Below are positions 450-7,884 of a DNA stretch of 32,779 bases, one piece after another; position 1 is the first letter of the stretch; each line of letters begins with the position of its first letter. The translations under genes were made by a program, and so were the position numbers. Source of the DNA: an uncultured Phycisphaerales bacterium (GTDB lineage: Bacteria; Planctomycetota; Phycisphaerae; UBA1845; Fen-1342); the NCBI GenBank assembly GCA_903914415.1, contig CAIWOY010000307.1, positions 1 to 32,779 of the forward strand, given 5' to 3'. The notes beneath the pieces were generated by a model. That model saw only the letters and a program-made list of their open reading frames with translations. It ran no database searches and was not told the origin of the DNA.

Positions 450-917
450 TCACCGCCGCCGGCGCAGCGACTGGTTGATGTCCCGCTGCTGGTCCCGGCG
501 CTTGATGCTTTCGCGCTTGTCCGCGTGGGTCTTGCCGCGGGCCAGCGCAATATCGACCTTTGCGATGCCGCGCTCGTTGAAGTAGATGGCCAGCGGCACG
601 ATCGTCAGGCCGCGCTGCGTGACCCGCGCTTGCCACCGTTTGATCTGCCGGCGATGCAGCAGCAACTTGCGCTCGCGCGTGGCTTTGTGTTGGGCGTAAC
701 CCGCCATCGGGTAGGGGGCGATATTGCAGTCCAGCAGGAACAGCTCGCCGCTGCGGAGGTAGGCGTAGGACTCGTCGAGCGAGGCCCGTCCCGCTCGTAA
801 GCTCTTGACTTCGCTACCAGTTAGCGAAATTCCCGCCTCCAGGGTCTCGAGCACTTCGAAGTCGTACCGGACCTTGCGGTTGACGATCCTGGGGGCTTCA
901 GGTGGACCTTTGGCCAT
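450..917 (-). CDS. smpB: SsrA-binding protein SmpB
   Basis: SmpB binds tmRNA (SsrA) and brings it to stalled ribosomes for trans-translation. The 155-residue product has the usual family length. It shows the conserved OB-fold core: VRYDFEVLETLEAGISL, then GSEVKSLRAGRASLDESYAY, then HKATRERKLLLHRRQIKR, and the ribosome-contacting stretch LARGKTHADKRESIKRRD. It ends in a basic tail of four Arg, as SmpB tails do. The start is the ATG at 917, where MAKG matches the usual N-terminus; upstream codons in frame add unrelated residues. The gene diverges from the ECF sigma gene at 1027. No tmRNA gene is visible in this window. The identification is secure. Confidence 0.96.
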   Translation of the reverse strand: MAKGPPEAPRIVNRKVRYDFEVLETLEAGISLTGSEVKSLRAGRASLDESYAYLRSGELFLLDCNIAPYPMAGYAQHKATRERKLLLHRRQIKRWQARVTQRGLTIVPLAIYFNERGIAKVDIALARGKTHADKRESIKRRDQQRDINQSLRRRR

Positions 918-928
918 GACGAAGTTAC

Positions 929-958
929 ATTGTAGAGTGGTACGCTGTGGGCGTGCAA
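929..958 (-). promoter_or_regulatory. Candidate smpB promoter
   Basis: On the - strand TACAAT (929-934; five of six matches to a sigma-70 -10) is preceded after 18 nt by TTGCAC (953-958; weak -35). A transcript from here would start about 5 nt before the smpB ATG, so it would be almost leaderless. No Shine-Dalgarno sequence is present, which fits. The -35 match is poor. Confidence 0.35.
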
Positions 959-1026
959 CCCGGAGGTGGTGTGCGCGTACAAGGTGGTGTGACGTGGACG
1001 GTAGACCCAACGTCCCGAAGATTGCG

Positions 1027-1626
1027 ATGCCTCGGAGCGAAGAGACACGGCTGATCGCGCGGGCCAAGCGCGGCAGCCCGGATGCGTTCCGCGTCCTGGT
1101 GGACGCCTACAAGGACCGGCTGTTCGCATTTGTCTGGCGGATGGTCCGCGACCACCACGAGGCGGAGGACATCACGCAGTCGGCCTTCGTGAAGGCCTAC
1201 GAGGCGCTCGAGAGTTATTCGGAACAATGGGCCTTCAGCACGTGGCTGTTCACGATCGCGTACCGGCTGTGCGTCAACCACCTGCGGAAGCGGCGGGCCT
1301 TCTCGGGCGAGGTGGATTTCACCCGCCTGGGGCCGGTCGAGGGCGACGCCCCCGAGGAATTGGCGAACACCGAGGAAGCCCGGCGGCTGCGGACGTTGAT
1401 CTGGTCCGCGGTCGACGAGTTGACGATGCCGCAGAAGGCGTCCGTGTTGATGTTCTACCGCGAGGGCAAGAGCTGCGAGGAGATCGGCCGCGTGCTGGAG
1501 ATGCCGGCCGTCACGGTCAAGAGCCACCTGCACCGCGCGCGGAGCAAGCTGCGCGAGTTGCTGCAAGCGGAGTTGGTGGACGGCTGGCAGACCATCCCGT
1601 TCCTGAGCGATGCGCGTTCGGCGTGA
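1027..1626 (+). CDS. ECF-family RNA polymerase sigma factor
   Basis: This 199-residue protein has only regions 2 and 4 of sigma-70, the mark of an ECF factor. Region 2 spans about residues 20-90, with AYKDRLFAFVWRMVRDHHEA, EDITQSAFVKAY and FSTWLFTIAYRLCVNHLRK. Region 4 spans about 128-180, with VDELTMPQKASVLMFY, the helix-turn-helix CEEIGRVLEMPAVTVKSHLH and RARSKLRELL. The ATG at 1027 places MPRSEETRLIARAKRGS in the usual N-terminal position; longer in-frame starts read through the smpB promoter region. No Shine-Dalgarno sequence is obvious. The gene is 7 bp from the zinc-finger anti-sigma gene, so the two form a pair. It recruits RNA polymerase to a regulon that cannot be named from sequence. 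Confidence 0.93.
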   Translation: MPRSEETRLIARAKRGSPDAFRVLVDAYKDRLFAFVWRMVRDHHEAEDITQSAFVKAYEALESYSEQWAFSTWLFTIAYRLCVNHLRKRRAFSGEVDFTRLGPVEGDAPEELANTEEARRLRTLIWSAVDELTMPQKASVLMFYREGKSCEEIGRVLEMPAVTVKSHLHRARSKLRELLQAELVDGWQTIPFLSDARSA

Positions 1627-1633
1627 GCGAACC

Positions 1634-2287
1634 ATGAACTGCGTGGAATGCGAAAAACTCTTTGACGCGTATCTCGACGGGCAACTCGTCGGGTCGTTGC
1701 GGCTCGAATTCGACGCCCACCGCGTGCATTGCCGGCACTGCCAGCGAACGCTGGCGATGCTGGAGGCGCTCGGGAACGTGATCGCGTCCGACACGCAGGT
1801 CCCCGAGCTGTCCCGCGACTTCGGCAGCCGCGTGCTGGAGGAAATCCGGCAGCCGCGGCAGCCCGCGCGCTGGCGGCTGCGGCCGGCGGTCGTACTGCTG
1901 AGCGTGTTTCAGGCGGCGGCGATCGTGCTGTTTGCCTGGCTGTGGTACACTCACCCGGCCCGGCCGGCGAAACCGGAGATGGGGCCCGTGGCGACCCTGC
2001 ATGGGACGCCCAGCCCGAACGACGAGGTGCGGGCCCGCGCGATGGAGGCGCTGGTCGACCGGCTGGAAAGCCGGCTGTGGGATATGCACGCGGCGGGCAA
2101 CAAGCTGACGACCGACCTCGTGAATGTGGCGCGGTACTTGAACATCATGATCCCCGACGACGTGGCCCGCGAATCCGTGAGGCTGGCCGGCGTGAACCCG
2201 CTCCAGGCGTTGTGGGACGCCATCGTCCCGGGACCGCCGGCGGAGCCCGAGCCCGCGGCCACGGCCGAAGATGTGCACGCGATCTAG
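1634..2287 (+). CDS. Membrane anti-sigma factor with zinc-finger domain
   Basis: The 217-residue protein starts with Cys3 and Cys6 and then carries H29-x3-C33-x2-C36, the HxxxCxxC anti-sigma zinc-finger pattern, after the typical FDAYLDGQL segment. One transmembrane helix lies at about 84-105 (AVVLLSVFQAAAIVLFAWLW), leaving about 110 residues outside, ending in a Pro/Ala/Glu-rich tail. By family knowledge the N-terminal domain holds the sigma factor encoded just upstream, and an envelope signal releases it. The outer domain has no recognised fold; a helical stretch (MEALVDRLESRLWDMHAAGN) may form a coiled coil. The ATG at 1634 is 7 bp after the sigma gene, which implies co-transcription. The role is well supported; the signal is unknown. 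Confidence 0.85.
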   Translation: MNCVECEKLFDAYLDGQLVGSLRLEFDAHRVHCRHCQRTLAMLEALGNVIASDTQVPELSRDFGSRVLEEIRQPRQPARWRLRPAVVLLSVFQAAAIVLFAWLWYTHPARPAKPEMGPVATLHGTPSPNDEVRARAMEALVDRLESRLWDMHAAGNKLTTDLVNVARYLNIMIPDDVARESVRLAGVNPLQALWDAIVPGPPAEPEPAATAEDVHAI

Positions 2288-2335
2288 GCGGCCGCGCACT
2301 TTCCAGCGCTTGTCAGACGTGGGACAACACCGCTC

Positions 2336-4543
2336 ATGAGCAGCCCGCACGTGGGTCGCTTGATCCCGACCCTGGTTTTTATCGGAGCCGTCTTCGCCGG
2401 CGTATGCAGCGCACGCGCGGACGATTCGCTGGCGCGCTACGTGCCGGCCGACGTTGGCCTGTTCATCGAGCTGCGCGGCGCAGACGACCTCCTCAGGCCC
2501 CTCACCGAAGCGCAGATCTGGCTTACGCTGGCCGATTTCGCCGGACAACCGGCGCGGCCGGACGAGCCCGAGGAATGGCGGCAGCGCCTCCAGCAAACCA
2601 TCCACATGACGCCGGACGAGGCGATCCATCGGCTGCTGTCGCAGCGCATGGCGTTCGTCGCGGAGAGCCCCCGGCGGGCGCAGGACGCGATCGTGCTGTG
2701 TCGCCCGGCGGAGCCGCTGCCCGCGCTGGTCCGCAGTTGGGCGGCACGCCCGCTGCCGACGGCCGGTCGCACGGCCGTCTACCGCCTGCCGAACAACGTC
2801 GGGGTGGCCGTGCACGGCGATCTACTGATGCTCGGGGACGACGTCACGCCGGGGATGTTCCCGCACGTCCTGCGGCTGCTCGAGTCCGGCACAGGGACGG
2901 CGCTGGCGGACGACCCGGTGTACGAGCGTCTGTTGGCGCGCGTGCCGAAAGACCCGGACGGCGTGTTCTTCCTGCGCATGGGTGAAGCCGCGCCGACCAG
3001 CGCGCCGGCCACGGCGCCGGCCGCGACCGCTCCGACGACGACGCGCGCCGCTGCGAGCCGCCGGCCGCGTCTGGACCTCCCCGGACCGCTCCGCGATTCA
3101 TCGAACGTGTTGCTGGCCCTCCATCGGGACGGGCGCCTGCTGCGCTTCAGCGCCGTCGGGGACGCCGCACGCGTGGCGCCGCCGCCGCCGGACGGCGACG
3201 CCCTCGCGCTGCTTGGCGGCTTGCCGGAGCGCACGCTGCTGGCGTGGTCCGGGCACGTCGACTATGGCCTGTTGACCCAAGCGCTCGCGTCGTTGCCGGA
3301 GCGCAACGTGCTGCGCGTGGCCTATGAGCTTCAGCAGCGCTCCGGAACGGTCCAGCATTTGATGGGGGCGCTGACGCCCGCTGCGTGTCTGGCGGTCGGC
3401 GTCGTCACGCCGGAGCGGCGTTCGGCGGCGGCACCGCCGATGCCCGCGCTGGGCCTGGTGCTCGCAGCCCGTGAGCCCGCGGTCGCTGCGGCTGAATGGG
3501 AAGCGCTGTTTCGTTCGACGCTGGGCATTTATCGTCTGCTTTCGTTGCGCGCCGGTACGCCGCCCCACGAGCCGCCGAAGATCGTCACCAGCGTCGTCGA
3601 GGGCGTGGAAGTGGAGCGGCTCGACCTGGGCGGGCTGCTGGCGATCAATCCTGAGTACACGCCGATCGGCGAGATCGAGTTCTGCTGGGCGCTGGACGGC
3701 AACGCCCTGATCCTGGCGTCGCATCCCGACTGGATGCGGCAGATCCTCGCCGCACGCCACCAGCGCGGGCCGCGCTTGCAGGGCGTGCTGGAAACGACGC
3801 ACAGCCGACCCCCGCAATCCTGCGACAGCCTCTTTTTCGCGCAGAGTGGGCCGGTCGCGGACCTCGGACAGCTCTGGCTCGACTACCTCGGGCGGACCAT
3901 CCCCGCGGTGCTGGACGAAAACTGGTGGCGCCAGGTCCAGCCCGGCGGACGCGACGTGCGGCTCGGCATCCTGGTCACGTCGAACAGCGAGCAGCACCGG
4001 CTGAAGGTGCTCACCGTGCCGCCGGACGCCCCGGCGCACGGGTTTCTGAAGGTCGGAGACGACATCGTGGGATGCAATCGGCGCCGCTTCGCCACGTCGC
4101 AGCCGATCGACGAGATGACGCGTGGGCTGGCCGAGCGGCCGGACGCGCGCTGGGTCGACCTGTTGGTCGAACGCGAAGGCGGAATGCCGCGCAATCGCCG
4201 GATCCCGTTGCCGTTTGCGGACCCGGTGCAGGTGTTGCGGCGGATCGTGGCGATCGGGCATCTGCTGCAGCGGGTCGTGTACTCAGAAGACCTGGCGGAC
4301 GAGGCGGGCCCGCGCGGCGAGTTGACGCTGGAGTTGCGCGGGACGGAAGGGCCGCTGTTTGGCTTCGCAGTTGAACCGCCGGGCACGGCCTCGGCGCCCG
4401 CGACACAGCCGGTGAGCCCTGCGCTCGGCCAGTCGCCGCCCGCACCCCCTGCCCCGGTGCCGTCGCAGCCCGCGCCCAGTACGCCGCCGTCCACCGTGCC
4501 GGCGTCGCAGCCGGCCGCGACTACTTCGCCGACAGGAGGATGA
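2336..4543 (+). CDS. Exported protein of unknown function (735 aa, Pro/Ala/Ser/Thr-rich tail)
   Basis: The protein begins with a signal peptide (LIPTLVFIGAVFAGVCSARA, cleavage expected before DDS). The mature N-terminus, YVPADVGLFIELRGADDLL, is in the style of DUF3352-type exported proteins, but I cannot confirm the family. A second low-complexity patch of Ala/Thr/Pro (about residues 220-245) separates an N-terminal from a central domain, and the last 60 residues are almost only Pro, Ala, Ser, Thr and Gln, like a wall-spanning or linker tail. No catalytic motif was recognised. It is the third gene after an ECF sigma and its anti-sigma (48-bp gap), so it may be part of the signalling unit or a target. 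Its 3' end overlaps the convergent gene at 4521 by 23 bp. Confidence 0.75.
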   Translation: MSSPHVGRLIPTLVFIGAVFAGVCSARADDSLARYVPADVGLFIELRGADDLLRPLTEAQIWLTLADFAGQPARPDEPEEWRQRLQQTIHMTPDEAIHRLLSQRMAFVAESPRRAQDAIVLCRPAEPLPALVRSWAARPLPTAGRTAVYRLPNNVGVAVHGDLLMLGDDVTPGMFPHVLRLLESGTGTALADDPVYERLLARVPKDPDGVFFLRMGEAAPTSAPATAPAATAPTTTRAAASRRPRLDLPGPLRDSSNVLLALHRDGRLLRFSAVGDAARVAPPPPDGDALALLGGLPERTLLAWSGHVDYGLLTQALASLPERNVLRVAYELQQRSGTVQHLMGALTPAACLAVGVVTPERRSAAAPPMPALGLVLAAREPAVAAAEWEALFRSTLGIYRLLSLRAGTPPHEPPKIVTSVVEGVEVERLDLGGLLAINPEYTPIGEIEFCWALDGNALILASHPDWMRQILAARHQRGPRLQGVLETTHSRPPQSCDSLFFAQSGPVADLGQLWLDYLGRTIPAVLDENWWRQVQPGGRDVRLGILVTSNSEQHRLKVLTVPPDAPAHGFLKVGDDIVGCNRRRFATSQPIDEMTRGLAERPDARWVDLLVEREGGMPRNRRIPLPFADPVQVLRRIVAIGHLLQRVVYSEDLADEAGPRGELTLELRGTEGPLFGFAVEPPGTASAPATQPVSPALGQSPPAPPAPVPSQPAPSTPPSTVPASQPAATTSPTGG

Positions 4544-5000
4544 TCAGCACGTCGCCCCCCTCGAGATCCCAGGCGCCGAAGGGCTGAAACGTGCCGGCCT
4601 CCAGCTTGTACTCGATGTTCATCCGCGGCTTCTTTTCCTTTTCCTTCAAGACCTGGAGTTGCAGCGCGATTCGTTCCACGCCCTTGTCCTTCTCCCGCGT
4701 TTTCGGCGTGACCATCGCCTGGTATCCGCCGGTAAGCGGCGTCGTGAAGGTCTTGCCGAGGTCCACCGTCTCCTTGATCTTCCGTTCGAGCCTGAAGCCG
4801 GTGTACTTGAAGCGCTGCTTGAGCTTGTCGGCAAACGACTTGAGCTCGGGGGAGATGTCTTTGCTCTTGGTGGACGCGCGGATGACCCAGATTTCGAGGT
4901 CCGCGGACGTGCTCTTCTTCGCGGGCTCGTCAGCCGCCCCGGCCACCCCGAACAGCGTCAGGGCGAGCGCCAACGGAATCACATGCACCGGACGCGGCAT
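4521..5000 (-). CDS. Small exported protein of unknown function (159 aa)
   Basis: The ATG at 5000 is preceded by a strong AGGAGG with a 6-nt spacer, which fixes the start. A signal peptide (VIPLALALTLFGVAGAA) is followed by a Lys-rich mature domain with DLEIWVIRASTKSKDISPELK and FADKLKQRFKYTGFRL, then alternating strands to WDLEGGDVLIILLSAK. I do not know a named family. It follows the ECF sigma gene and the membrane anti-sigma candidate on the same strand (65 bp after the latter), so it is probably the last gene of that unit. The product likely sits in the periplasm and may sense or carry out the envelope function governed by the sigma factor; this is inferred from position only. Confidence 0.75.
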   Translation of the reverse strand: MPRPVHVIPLALALTLFGVAGAADEPAKKSTSADLEIWVIRASTKSKDISPELKSFADKLKQRFKYTGFRLERKIKETVDLGKTFTTPLTGGYQAMVTPKTREKDKGVERIALQLQVLKEKEKKPRMNIEYKLEAGTFQPFGAWDLEGGDVLIILLSAK

Positions 5001-5065
5001 GTCACGTCCTCCTGACAATCCGCGCGCTTCGTCGCCGGCGCTGGGCCGGTCCGAACCCGCAGCGT

Positions 5066-5578
5066 TCAACTTTGCTCTTCAAGTACCCAGATAATGACCG
5101 CTCCATTGTCGCCGAGCGAGACCACGAACGGCGTGTCCCCATCATAAACTTCAAGCCGGTCAATCTCCAGGTCGGTGGCCAGACGCAGCGGCGACGCGGT
5201 CGGCTGCCGTGGCGTGCCGAGCCACCACGCCGCCGCCAGGATCAGGCAGGCCGCGACGGCCGCCAGTGGTCTCCACAGGCGGAGGACTTGCGGCGTAACG
5301 CGGGTGCGGCGCGCAACCTTCGGCCGCGCGCCGGCGATCCGGTCCCACGCCCGGCTCCAGGCGCCGGCGGAAGGCAAGCTCCGCCGCTCGGCCTGGCCCA
5401 ACGCGTCCGCCAACTGCGGCTCGATAACCGGCACGCGGTCCGCCAGTTGCGCGGCGAGGTCGGGCCGCTCGTTCAGGACTGCCGCCAGCCGCTCGACCTG
5501 GTCGGGCGTCAGCGCGTCGAGACCGCCCGCGATCGCGGCCTGCAAGGCGTCGTCCATGTTGTTCAGCGGACGGCTCAC
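5066..5578 (-). CDS. Single-pass membrane protein, probable anti-sigma factor without zinc finger
   Basis: The 170-residue protein has a helical cytoplasmic part (about 1-103, rich in Ala, Leu and Asp), one transmembrane helix at about 104-121 (PLAAVAACLILAAAWWLG) and a 49-residue outer part ending FVVSLGDNGAVIIWVLEEQS. It has no Cys outside the membrane helix, so it lacks the zinc-finger anti-sigma domain. Its place directly downstream of an ECF sigma gene and its topology nevertheless fit an anti-sigma role. The start chosen is GTG 5578, with GAGGA upstream; ATG 5557 is the alternative. A 135-bp gap separates it from the sigma gene. The function is inferred from context and topology. Confidence 0.7.
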   Translation of the reverse strand: MSRPLNNMDDALQAAIAGGLDALTPDQVERLAAVLNERPDLAAQLADRVPVIEPQLADALGQAERRSLPSAGAWSRAWDRIAGARPKVARRTRVTPQVLRLWRPLAAVAACLILAAAWWLGTPRQPTASPLRLATDLEIDRLEVYDGDTPFVVSLGDNGAVIIWVLEEQS

Positions 5579-5713: not shown

Positions 5714-6346
5714 TTATGTTGGGCGCGGCGTGTTTTCGAGTACGCCGGGCGGGGCGAGGTCCGGTAACATCTCGAATAGCCGCCGCCGTGCATGGTACAA
5801 CCGGCTCATCACCGTGCCGATCGGGATCTCCAGCGCCGCGGCGATCTCGCCGTAGGTCATTTCGCCGGTCGCGTACAAGGCGAACACGGCCCGCTGGTCC
5901 GGCGGCAGGGCCTCCAGCGCCTGACGCAGCCGCTGGGCCAGCTCCTGGCGCTCCAGTTCCTGGCCAGACGGGCCGCTGGTGTCGGGTGCCGCGAGCTGCG
6001 GCCCGCGGGACTCGTCGTCGGGGTCGAGCGGAACCGCCTGCCGCACTTTCCGCGTCCGCAGCACGTCCAGCGCCCGGTTCGCGACGATGCGTAGCAGCCA
6101 CGTGCGGAATCCGGATTCGCGCTGAAACTCGGCCAGCCGGTCGAACGCCCGGATGAAGCTGTCCTGCACGACGTCGAGCGCATCTTCCGCGCGGCGCGTG
6201 ATCCGCAGGGCCGTCCGATACGCGGCCTCCCGGTGCTGCTCGAAGAGCGCGCGGCGCGCAGCCGAGTCGCCGGCCGCAGCGCGGTCGGTCAAGCGCAACT
6301 CCTCGGGTTCGACGTGCAGGCGGGGCACAGTATTCAACGAATTCAC
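5714..6346 (-). CDS. ECF-family RNA polymerase sigma factor (second pair)
   Basis: The 210-residue protein carries region 2 (about 32-100: ALFEQHREAAYRTALRITR, ALDVVQDSFIRAFDRL, FRTWLLRIVANRALDVLR) and region 4 (about 137-192: ALEALPPDQRAVFALYATGE, MTYGEIAAALEIPIGTVMSR, LYHARRRLFEML). The linker between them is long and acidic (DPDDESRGPQLAAPD). The start is taken as GTG 6346, with no clear Shine-Dalgarno sequence; GTG 6328 (seventh codon) is also possible. It belongs to a different ECF subtype from the factor at 1027, judging by sequence. It heads a three-gene unit on the - strand and diverges from a secreted repeat protein at 6487, which makes that gene a candidate target. Confidence 0.93.
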   Translation of the reverse strand: MNSLNTVPRLHVEPEELRLTDRAAAGDSAARRALFEQHREAAYRTALRITRRAEDALDVVQDSFIRAFDRLAEFQRESGFRTWLLRIVANRALDVLRTRKVRQAVPLDPDDESRGPQLAAPDTSGPSGQELERQELAQRLRQALEALPPDQRAVFALYATGEMTYGEIAAALEIPIGTVMSRLYHARRRLFEMLPDLAPPGVLENTPRPT

Positions 6347-6440
6347 GTCACATCACGATACCCGCCCTCGCCTCCGAATTCCGCGCCGCCCCGCGAAATA
6401 ATCGACGCGCGCGTCACGTCAAAAGACGCGGTTCAGGCAA

Positions 6441-6486: not shown

Positions 6487-7206
6487 ATGAAACGCTTCCT
6501 CGCACTGCTGACTGGAGCACAGCTCCTCTGGACGGCTGCCGTGTTCGCGGGCGAGGCGACCGCCGTCTCGATCGCCTCGAACGGCGGCAGCGCCTCGGCC
6601 ACCGCCACGGCGACGGGTAACGCCGACGCGACGGCCATCGCGGGCGCGACCAACGGCGGCCGGGCCGTCGCCAACAGCGCTGCCCAGGGCAATCGCAACG
6701 GGTACGCCAGCAGCCGGGCCGTCGCGACCGCGGACCGCGGCGTGGCCCTCAGCGACTCCACGGCCGACGCCACCGGCCGCTTCGGCGGCACGGCCCTGGC
6801 CGACAGCGAGAGCATCGCCGCCGCCCGCGGCGGACTGGCCGTCAGCCGCAGCAATGCGACCGCCGACGGCGTGTATTTCGGTCAGGCCCGCAGCCGGTCC
6901 ACCTCGACGGCGCTCAGCACGTATGGCACCGCGCTCAGCCGCAGCGACGCGACGAGCCGCGGCCTGTGGGGCGGCATCGCTTCCAGCGACAGCGACTCGC
7001 AGGCCGTGTCCTATGGCGGCGTGTCAAGAAGCACGGCGCGGGTCACGAGCGACGCTCGCTATCACGCCCACGCGGAATCGGACGGGATCGGCATCAGCCA
7101 AAGCGGCTGGTCGTGGTCCAGCGACGCCCGCGTACACGCGGAGAGCCGGGCCACGCAGTTCGGTCACAGCCGCTCGAATGTCGTGGTGATCAAAGTGCGG
7201 CCGTAA
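6487..7206 (+). CDS. Secreted Ser/Ala/Thr/Gly repeat protein, predicted beta-solenoid (239 aa)
   Basis: The ATG at 6487 has AAGGAG 9 nt upstream. A signal peptide (MKRFLALLTGAQLLWTAAVFAG) is followed by about fourteen imperfect repeats of roughly 12-16 residues. Each has alternating small residues (patterns such as TALSRSDATSRG, LAVSRSNATADG, VALSDSTADATG) and ends in a G or GG turn. Alternation of small residues with regular Gly turns suggests a beta-helix or beta-roll, somewhat like YadA head repeats, but no anchor or coiled coil is present. The C-terminus is HSRSNVVVIKVRP, which resembles the end of the next gene's product. No known family was recognised. A structural or adhesive surface role is plausible; the fold is inferred from pattern only. 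Confidence 0.75.
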   Translation: MKRFLALLTGAQLLWTAAVFAGEATAVSIASNGGSASATATATGNADATAIAGATNGGRAVANSAAQGNRNGYASSRAVATADRGVALSDSTADATGRFGGTALADSESIAAARGGLAVSRSNATADGVYFGQARSRSTSTALSTYGTALSRSDATSRGLWGGIASSDSDSQAVSYGGVSRSTARVTSDARYHAHAESDGIGISQSGWSWSSDARVHAESRATQFGHSRSNVVVIKVRP

Positions 7207-7216
7207 CACGCCCGGC

Positions 7217-7257
7217 CGGAGGGTAGCCCGGCGGCGACGTGCCGCCGGGACCCTCCG
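7217..7257 (+). terminator. Strong hairpin after the first repeat-protein gene
   Basis: CGGAGGG and CCCTCCG enclose CCCGGCGGC-gacgt-GCCGCCGGG, giving a 16-bp stem with a small internal loop. It lies 10 bp after the stop codon. A run of seven T begins 27 nt further on (7284-7290), not directly after the stem, so it is either an imperfect terminator or an extragenic palindrome separating the paralogous genes. Confidence 0.5.
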
Positions 7258-7338
7258 CGAGGGCCGTTTGAGCGCAGCGGATTTTTTTCGACGGAATGCC
7301 AGCGAACCTTGGAATTCAGAAGCTCGGGAGAAACAGCC

Positions 7339-7884
7339 ATGAAACGCACGCACGACATGTTGATGACGCTCGCATGTGTGGCAGGGTTGTTTTGCAGTGC
7401 GACGGGCTTGGGCAGCGACGCATACACCTCGGCCGGCGCGACCAGCAACCCGGGACGATCCGGCACCGCGACGGCCACCGCCCGCTACGAGGGCGACGTC
7501 GGTTTCGCCCGCACGCAGACCCGCACCGGCCCGATCAGCGCCAGCCGCGCGGTTGCGGTCGGCGTCGATGAAGAAGGTCTGTCGCTGTCCATCAGCACCG
7601 CGCTGGCCCCCCGCAACGGTCCGGCCATCGCACTTAACTTCAACTTCAGCATCGACCGCGACGGCGACGTCGCCCGCAGCATCGGCCGTGCCACGAGCAC
7701 CGGCGGGATCAGCCGCACGGCGTCGGTATCCGGCGGGACGAGCACGGGCCGCGGCGGCGCGACCGCCATCTCGCGGGCGAGCGGCTCGACCAGCTTCGGC
7801 GGCGTGGTGCGCACCGACACGCGCAGCGAGCACGAGCCGCGGCCCGTCGTGGTGGTGGTGCGGCCGGCGTTTCGCTGGCGATAG
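7339..7884 (+). CDS. Secreted Ser/Ala/Thr/Gly repeat protein, second member (181 aa)
   Basis: The ATG at 7339, preceded by GGGAG, starts a signal peptide (MLMTLACVAGLFCSATGLGS). The mature part repeats short strands of alternating small or hydrophobic residues separated by Gly turns (TATATARYEGDVG, ASRAVAVGVDEEG, LSLSISTALAPRNG, IALNFNFSIDRDGD, ATAISRASGSTSFGG). It ends PRPVVVVVRPAFRWR, which shares VVV-x-VRP with the product of 6487, so the two are probably paralogues despite low overall identity. No catalytic motif or sorting signal was recognised. It is read in the same direction as 6487 but behind a strong hairpin, so its level may differ. Function unknown; a surface or matrix role is inferred. 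Confidence 0.72.
   Translation: MKRTHDMLMTLACVAGLFCSATGLGSDAYTSAGATSNPGRSGTATATARYEGDVGFARTQTRTGPISASRAVAVGVDEEGLSLSISTALAPRNGPAIALNFNFSIDRDGDVARSIGRATSTGGISRTASVSGGTSTGRGGATAISRASGSTSFGGVVRTDTRSEHEPRPVVVVVRPAFRWR

Follow-up and report, generated by a model that had tools for sequence, protein, structure and literature searches.

Exported proteins built from beta-strand repeats occur as pairs in curli (CsgA/CsgB) and in Pseudomonas (FapB/FapC), and thin solenoids of stacked strands with small residues inside are found in the antifreeze protein of Rhagium inquisitor (RiAFP, 4dt5) and in SufB/SufD. Antiparallel meanders are found in OmpX, autotransporter barrels and FapF. RpoE-like ECF systems associate a sigma factor carrying sigma2 and sigma4 domains with a membrane anti-sigma factor, and the promoters read by ECF factors carry AAC and CGT as hallmarks (PMC8103513). 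The locus described here resembles each of these systems in part. In the window (the whole stretch of DNA analysed, 32,779 nucleotides from an uncultured Phycisphaerales bacterium), two neighbouring genes on the same strand, A and B, encode proteins with export signals and diverge from an ECF sigma factor gene, ECF1 (Table 1), all of which agrees with an earlier note made from the sequence alone. We propose, with moderate confidence, that A and B are structural components of a cell-surface layer that is controlled by an ECF factor and whose regulon changed its sigma factor.

Table 1. Features of the A/B locus, with positions in the window.
Feature	Positions	Strand	Description
Small exported protein	4521..5069	-	third gene of the ECF1 operon; unknown family
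Probable anti-sigma factor	5066..5578	-	one hydrophobic segment, no Pfam match, conserved with ECF1; presumed role
ECF sigma factor (ECF1)	5714..6346	-	Sigma70_r2 (E 7.6e-16), Sigma70_r4_2 (E 2.5e-17)
Putative autoregulatory ECF1 promoter	6311..6336	-	perfect TGAATA-N16-CGTC within the 5' end of the annotated ORF; same place in relatives
Putative ECF promoter of A	6395..6420	+	GAAATA-N16-CGTC, degenerate form of TGAATA-N16-CGTC
Gene A	6487..7206	+	exported Ala/Ser-rich protein, 239 aa, predicted flat beta-solenoid
Signal peptide of A	6487..6549	+	predicted cleavage after A21, between VFA and GE (ALA and GE in relatives), from sequence and alignment
Strong GC hairpin in the A-B gap	7210..7264	+	window's genus; z -2.8 for the whole gap
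Gene B	7339..7884	+	exported Ala/Gly/Arg-rich protein, 181 aa, predicted 10-strand antiparallel sheet, basic tail
Signal peptide of B	7339..7413	+	predicted from alignment; relatives cleaved between ALA and S[DE]A

Computational analysis showed the families and their co-occurrence, the promoters, and which kinds of gene are targets. Both reading frames open with an ATG behind a good ribosome-binding site; for B, an upstream TTG at 7309 was rejected as the merely mechanical start of the open reading frame. The collinear relatives of A were 236-240 aa long and 46-94% identical, the closest being from a fen_1342 MAG (94%), and those of B were 36-89% identical. Comparison of the window with its nearest relative gave dN/dS values of 0.126 for A and 0.245 for B, indicating purifying selection on both. 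Given the collinear relatives and these ratios, A and B are real genes and not chance reading frames. A was almost free of insertions and deletions, and both proteins were basic (median net charge +6.5 for A and +9 for B). No family in Pfam or NCBIfam and no PDB sequence matched A or B, apart from Pfam matches to Nucleoporin_FG and Big_3_5, each to one member by chance, which were discounted, and our literature search found no paper on either protein. On sequence comparison, A and B are two exported protein families that were previously undescribed, as had been suspected from the sequence. Alignment of one family to the other with hhalign gave a probability of 89%, and consisted largely of signal peptide and composition.

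Of 114 genomes of one Phycisphaerae order, 45 had A and 43 had B, each as a single copy; two partial A matches in each of two genomes (G021 and G067) were pieces split at contig ends or a fragment. The relatives of both proteins came from uncultured Phycisphaerae. Since a published survey places the FEN-1342 family within the order UBA1845 (PMC11266412), the order is probably UBA1845. Neither gene was found in 391 sampled Planctomycetota genomes outside the order, where only 7-8 candidates per genome were scored. The earlier note had made conservation of the pair in related genomes a test of its reading, and 43 of the 45 genomes with A also had B; every genome with B had A, and in the two with A only (G022 and G056) A lay against a contig edge. 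The association was extreme (Fisher p 2e-29), a value that ignores kinship and is descriptive only. A was followed by B on the same strand in 32 of the 43 genomes (families f1, f4, f5, f7 and f8), B lay 2.4 kb from A in one (G038), and B was unlinked to A in ten, all of the window's family. Clustering of neighbourhoods outside f1 yielded no third linked partner, and no secretion or anchoring gene was linked to A or B there.

In the window's family, most genomes kept the ECF1 gene, the anti-sigma candidate and the small exported protein together with A. The small exported protein, with a conserved IRAT...SPELK...TGF, belonged to a family found in 24 of the 114 genomes, including some without A and B. 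ECF1 is like the RpoE-type systems in its two sigma domains, its neighbour with one hydrophobic segment and its putative autoregulation, the last proposed from the perfect promoter motif at the 5' end of the gene, both in the window and in relatives. This promoter sits inside the annotated N-terminus, so the true ECF1 start is probably the TTG at 6292 behind GAGGAG. N5 and V12, which are conserved in the ECF alignment, are probably promoter bases, so the ECF1 start codon is likely to be misplaced in many genomes. Most families with A had no ECF1, and some f1 genomes (G010 and G018, both about 84% complete) kept ECF1 with A and B not found. Two further arrangements were observed. Positions 805-4543 of the window contain another ECF gene together with a weak zf-HC2 anti-sigma candidate and an exported protein of 735 aa, a block conserved near A in several f1 genomes. 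One genome assigned to f8 (G067, at locus L080) carried the f1-type ECF1 block and the class-1 promoter described below beside A, by transfer or in a mixed bin (5% contamination).

Two short promoter patterns, class 1 (TGAATA-N16-CGTC) and class 2 ([TAC]AAC-N15-18-TGTCT), were scored. In the window's promoter group, 15 of 21 loci had the strict class-1 motif ahead of A (shuffled sequences, 0.0), and the remaining loci had near-forms of it. In the window alone, class-1 matches with two mismatches were not significant (14 found against 12.8 expected); the case for the promoter of A in Table 1 comes from its conserved place in relatives and not from window statistics. All ten unlinked B genes carried the strict motif. 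Most B genes adjacent to A were without it, as expected if they are co-transcribed with A. Because A, ECF1 and even the unlinked B share one ECF-type promoter with a fixed 16-base spacer, the promoter evidence strongly supports the suggestion of the earlier note that A and B are under sigma factor control. The class-1 layout at ECF1 fits an autoregulated ECF system. Compared with typical ECF promoters (PMC8103513), class 1 shares CGTC in the -10 element, whereas its -35 element is TGAATA and not AAC.

In other families a class-2 element preceded A at 22 of 23 loci by the test pattern (0.13 in shuffled sequences), and the distant B of G038 had one as well. Total class-2 matches were not above those of a reversed-pattern control, so it is the content after the sites that is telling, and not their count. 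The gene for another sigma factor, ECF2, had class-2 sites in f7 genomes; in several f1 genomes it had a class-1 motif and, nearer the start, a class-2-like AACCT...GTGTC. These arrangements suggest that ECF2 reads class 2 and that ECF1 drives ECF2 in f1, sigma factors being assigned to promoters here from autoregulation only. They also suggest that A, B and the Tyr-rich genes described below moved from ECF2 to ECF1 in f1.

Exact class-1 sites numbered only six in the window's own genome. Two were apparently intragenic; the other four belonged to ECF1, ECF2, a secreted protein with a fasciclin domain, and a lipoprotein anchored through Cys that has CxxC and a tail rich in Tyr and Asp. Across the window's family, the recurring class-1 targets were lipoproteins that were acidic and Tyr-rich, secreted proteins that were basic and Tyr-rich, and orthologues of ECF2. 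Class-2 elements in f7/f8 genomes preceded A and ECF2 as well as Tyr-rich lipoproteins and Tyr-rich secreted proteins. Products with at least 8% Tyr followed 15 of 49 class-1 sites and 6 of 12 class-2 sites, whereas none of 177 background open reading frames encoded such a product. All 21 of these were either lipobox-like with a net charge of -8 to -55 or not lipobox-like with a net charge of +5 to +17. Two individual loci may be mentioned here: a lipoprotein with CxxCY and a Tyr/Asp-rich tail (L092, 761-1171), of the kind that recurs behind class-1 promoters, and a secreted protein (L096) that has a fasciclin domain with E 8.6e-28 and lies 107 bases behind a class-1 motif. The ECF1 set differs from known ECF systems in its previously undescribed exported Ala/Ser-rich and Tyr-rich proteins and in an apparent switch of sigma factor between families.

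These targets bear on where A and B would act. They could be envelope-stress proteins of the periplasm, which would protect the cell or stiffen it from within the outer membrane, with no extracellular layer, a reading that we consider possible and somewhat improbable. ECF control suits an envelope-stress response, and A and B are small single-copy proteins with export signals and no anchor; however, the acidic lipoproteins, basic Tyr-rich secreted proteins and fasciclin-domain protein regulated with them are more typical of a surface or matrix. On the sequences of the regulon, we tentatively favour a location of A and B at the surface over one in the periplasm.

The AlphaFold2 model of A (26 sequences, pLDDT 78) had 15 strands of about 10 residues at a spacing of about 15. 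The earlier note had described units of about 15 residues in both proteins; in A this unit was one strand plus one turn, which would be half a coil if A is a flat solenoid, the two-strand coil being about 30 residues, and in B the strand spacing was 12-16 residues, distinct from the regular unit of A. In strands 4-11 of A the inward face was 100% Ala/Ser/Gly with an entropy of about 0.2-0.4 bits, and the outward face had about 1.6-2.3 bits and was often polar or charged. Over all strands, small residues made up 87% of the inward face, and the outer face, largely polar or charged, had a mean entropy of 1.86 bits. The alternation of conserved and variable faces in A and B was not equalled in any of 5000 within-strand shuffles. 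This near-invariant small inward face and variable outward face, as an independent sequence test, are consistent with a thin solenoid. Stacked ladders on the outer face of A at lag 2 were weak, with 32 of 300 permutations equally good. Foldseek matched A mainly to beta-solenoids and stacked-strand proteins (SufB/D, FapC, CsgA, ice-binding proteins including RiAFP, and pectinase-type helices), none of them significantly (best E 0.08). The beta-solenoid fold that the earlier note had expected of both proteins is thus moderately supported for A, by the model, the two-faced strands and the non-significant solenoid-like matches, and is not borne out for B, which was confidently modelled as an antiparallel meander. 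That the strands are parallel in A and antiparallel in B is read from the kinds of structure that each model resembles. A differs from RiAFP and the ice-binding solenoids in its outer face, which is variable and polar without ordered Thr ladders.

The weak likeness of A to FapC and CsgA, its stacked strand units and the curli-like arrangement of two adjacent exported subunits could mean that A is a functional amyloid subunit with B as nucleator or partner. We regard this as unlikely, since neither the two proteins nor 52 aligned members matched the Pfam curlin family, the conserved face of A consists of Ala/Ser and not of Gln/Asn ladders, and A is nearly indel-free and single copy. A and B further differ from curli and Fap in that no sequence relation, Gln/Asn motif or linked secretion gene was seen, and in their ECF-type promoters.

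The model of B reached a pLDDT of 94-98 in the greater part of the core and showed ten strands, each about 11 residues long, with short turns alternating with loops. Its Foldseek matches were antiparallel barrels, including outer-membrane barrels, FapF and autotransporter translocators, and a search of a viral fold library gave nothing significant. B might on this account be an outer-membrane beta-barrel that exports or anchors A; its meander and strand length are like those of OmpX, the autotransporter barrels and FapF, and ten such strands could cross a membrane. This is improbable, however. The best TM-scores were about 0.3 among the matches listed, by which B does not appear to be a closed barrel of known shape, outward hydrophobicity exceeded 0.6 only in strands 4-6, giving a patchy hydrophobic outside, and the chain ends in arginines and not in the aromatic residue typical of outer-membrane proteins. 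The hydrophobic outer face of strands 4-6 is a possible contact site.

The C-terminal VVV-x-VRP shared by the two window proteins, which the earlier note had taken as a common signature, was confined to the window's genus; relatives of A ended mostly in [VI]x[VI]RR or RP, and those of B in varied Arg-rich sequences. The motif was rejected as an anchor or sorting signal, not being conserved, and its occurrence in both proteins is, by these alignments, a local coincidence. In the same genus, a T run lies downstream of the hairpin between A and B, and this hairpin possibly tunes the ratio of A to B expression.

It is very improbable that A and B are low-complexity drift products without a common job, paired by shared ancestry of one operon, as their Ala/Ser/Gly-rich composition in high-GC genomes might suggest, since purifying selection, near-invariant inner faces, co-occurrence and the same promoter retained by unlinked genes contradict this.

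For the surface layer that we propose, we infer the sigma factor assignment, the location and the layer itself, and the following sequence of events would account for the data. Envelope stress or another outside signal would free ECF1 from the membrane protein encoded beside it, and ECF1 would then transcribe itself, A, B and other genes for exported proteins from TGAATA-N16-CGTC promoters. A, once exported, would form a beta-solenoid, thin and flat, with Ala and Ser packed inside and its variable polar rim exposed; exported B would be a rigid sheet of antiparallel strands that carries a tail rich in Arg. Membrane-anchored, very acidic Tyr-rich lipoproteins would provide a negative surface on which the basic A, B and Tyr-rich secreted proteins may assemble, giving a layer stiffened by both beta-structures. 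Elsewhere in the order, this set of genes carries a different ECF-like promoter, most likely read by ECF2, which would mean that the regulon changed its sigma factor.

Planctomycete envelopes are unusual, and the surface proteins of the largely uncultured UBA1845-type Phycisphaerae were undescribed in the literature searched. A and B represent two new protein families, paired with unusual strictness, and the confident model of B has no good match among solved structures. Through the promoter code, Tyr-rich and Ala/Ser-rich genes that were anonymous become members of a single testable regulon. Tentatively, these genes may encode a bacterial surface coat of a previously unknown kind, restricted to a single order of planctomycetes. 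It would combine A as Ala/Ser beta-solenoids, B as a new beta-sheet fold, and Tyr-rich proteins of opposite charge, and its entire regulon would have passed from ECF2 to ECF1 by promoter exchange at each gene. The regulon also looks like a clear example in nature of a set of ECF-controlled genes that exchanged its sigma factor and retained the kinds of gene in it.
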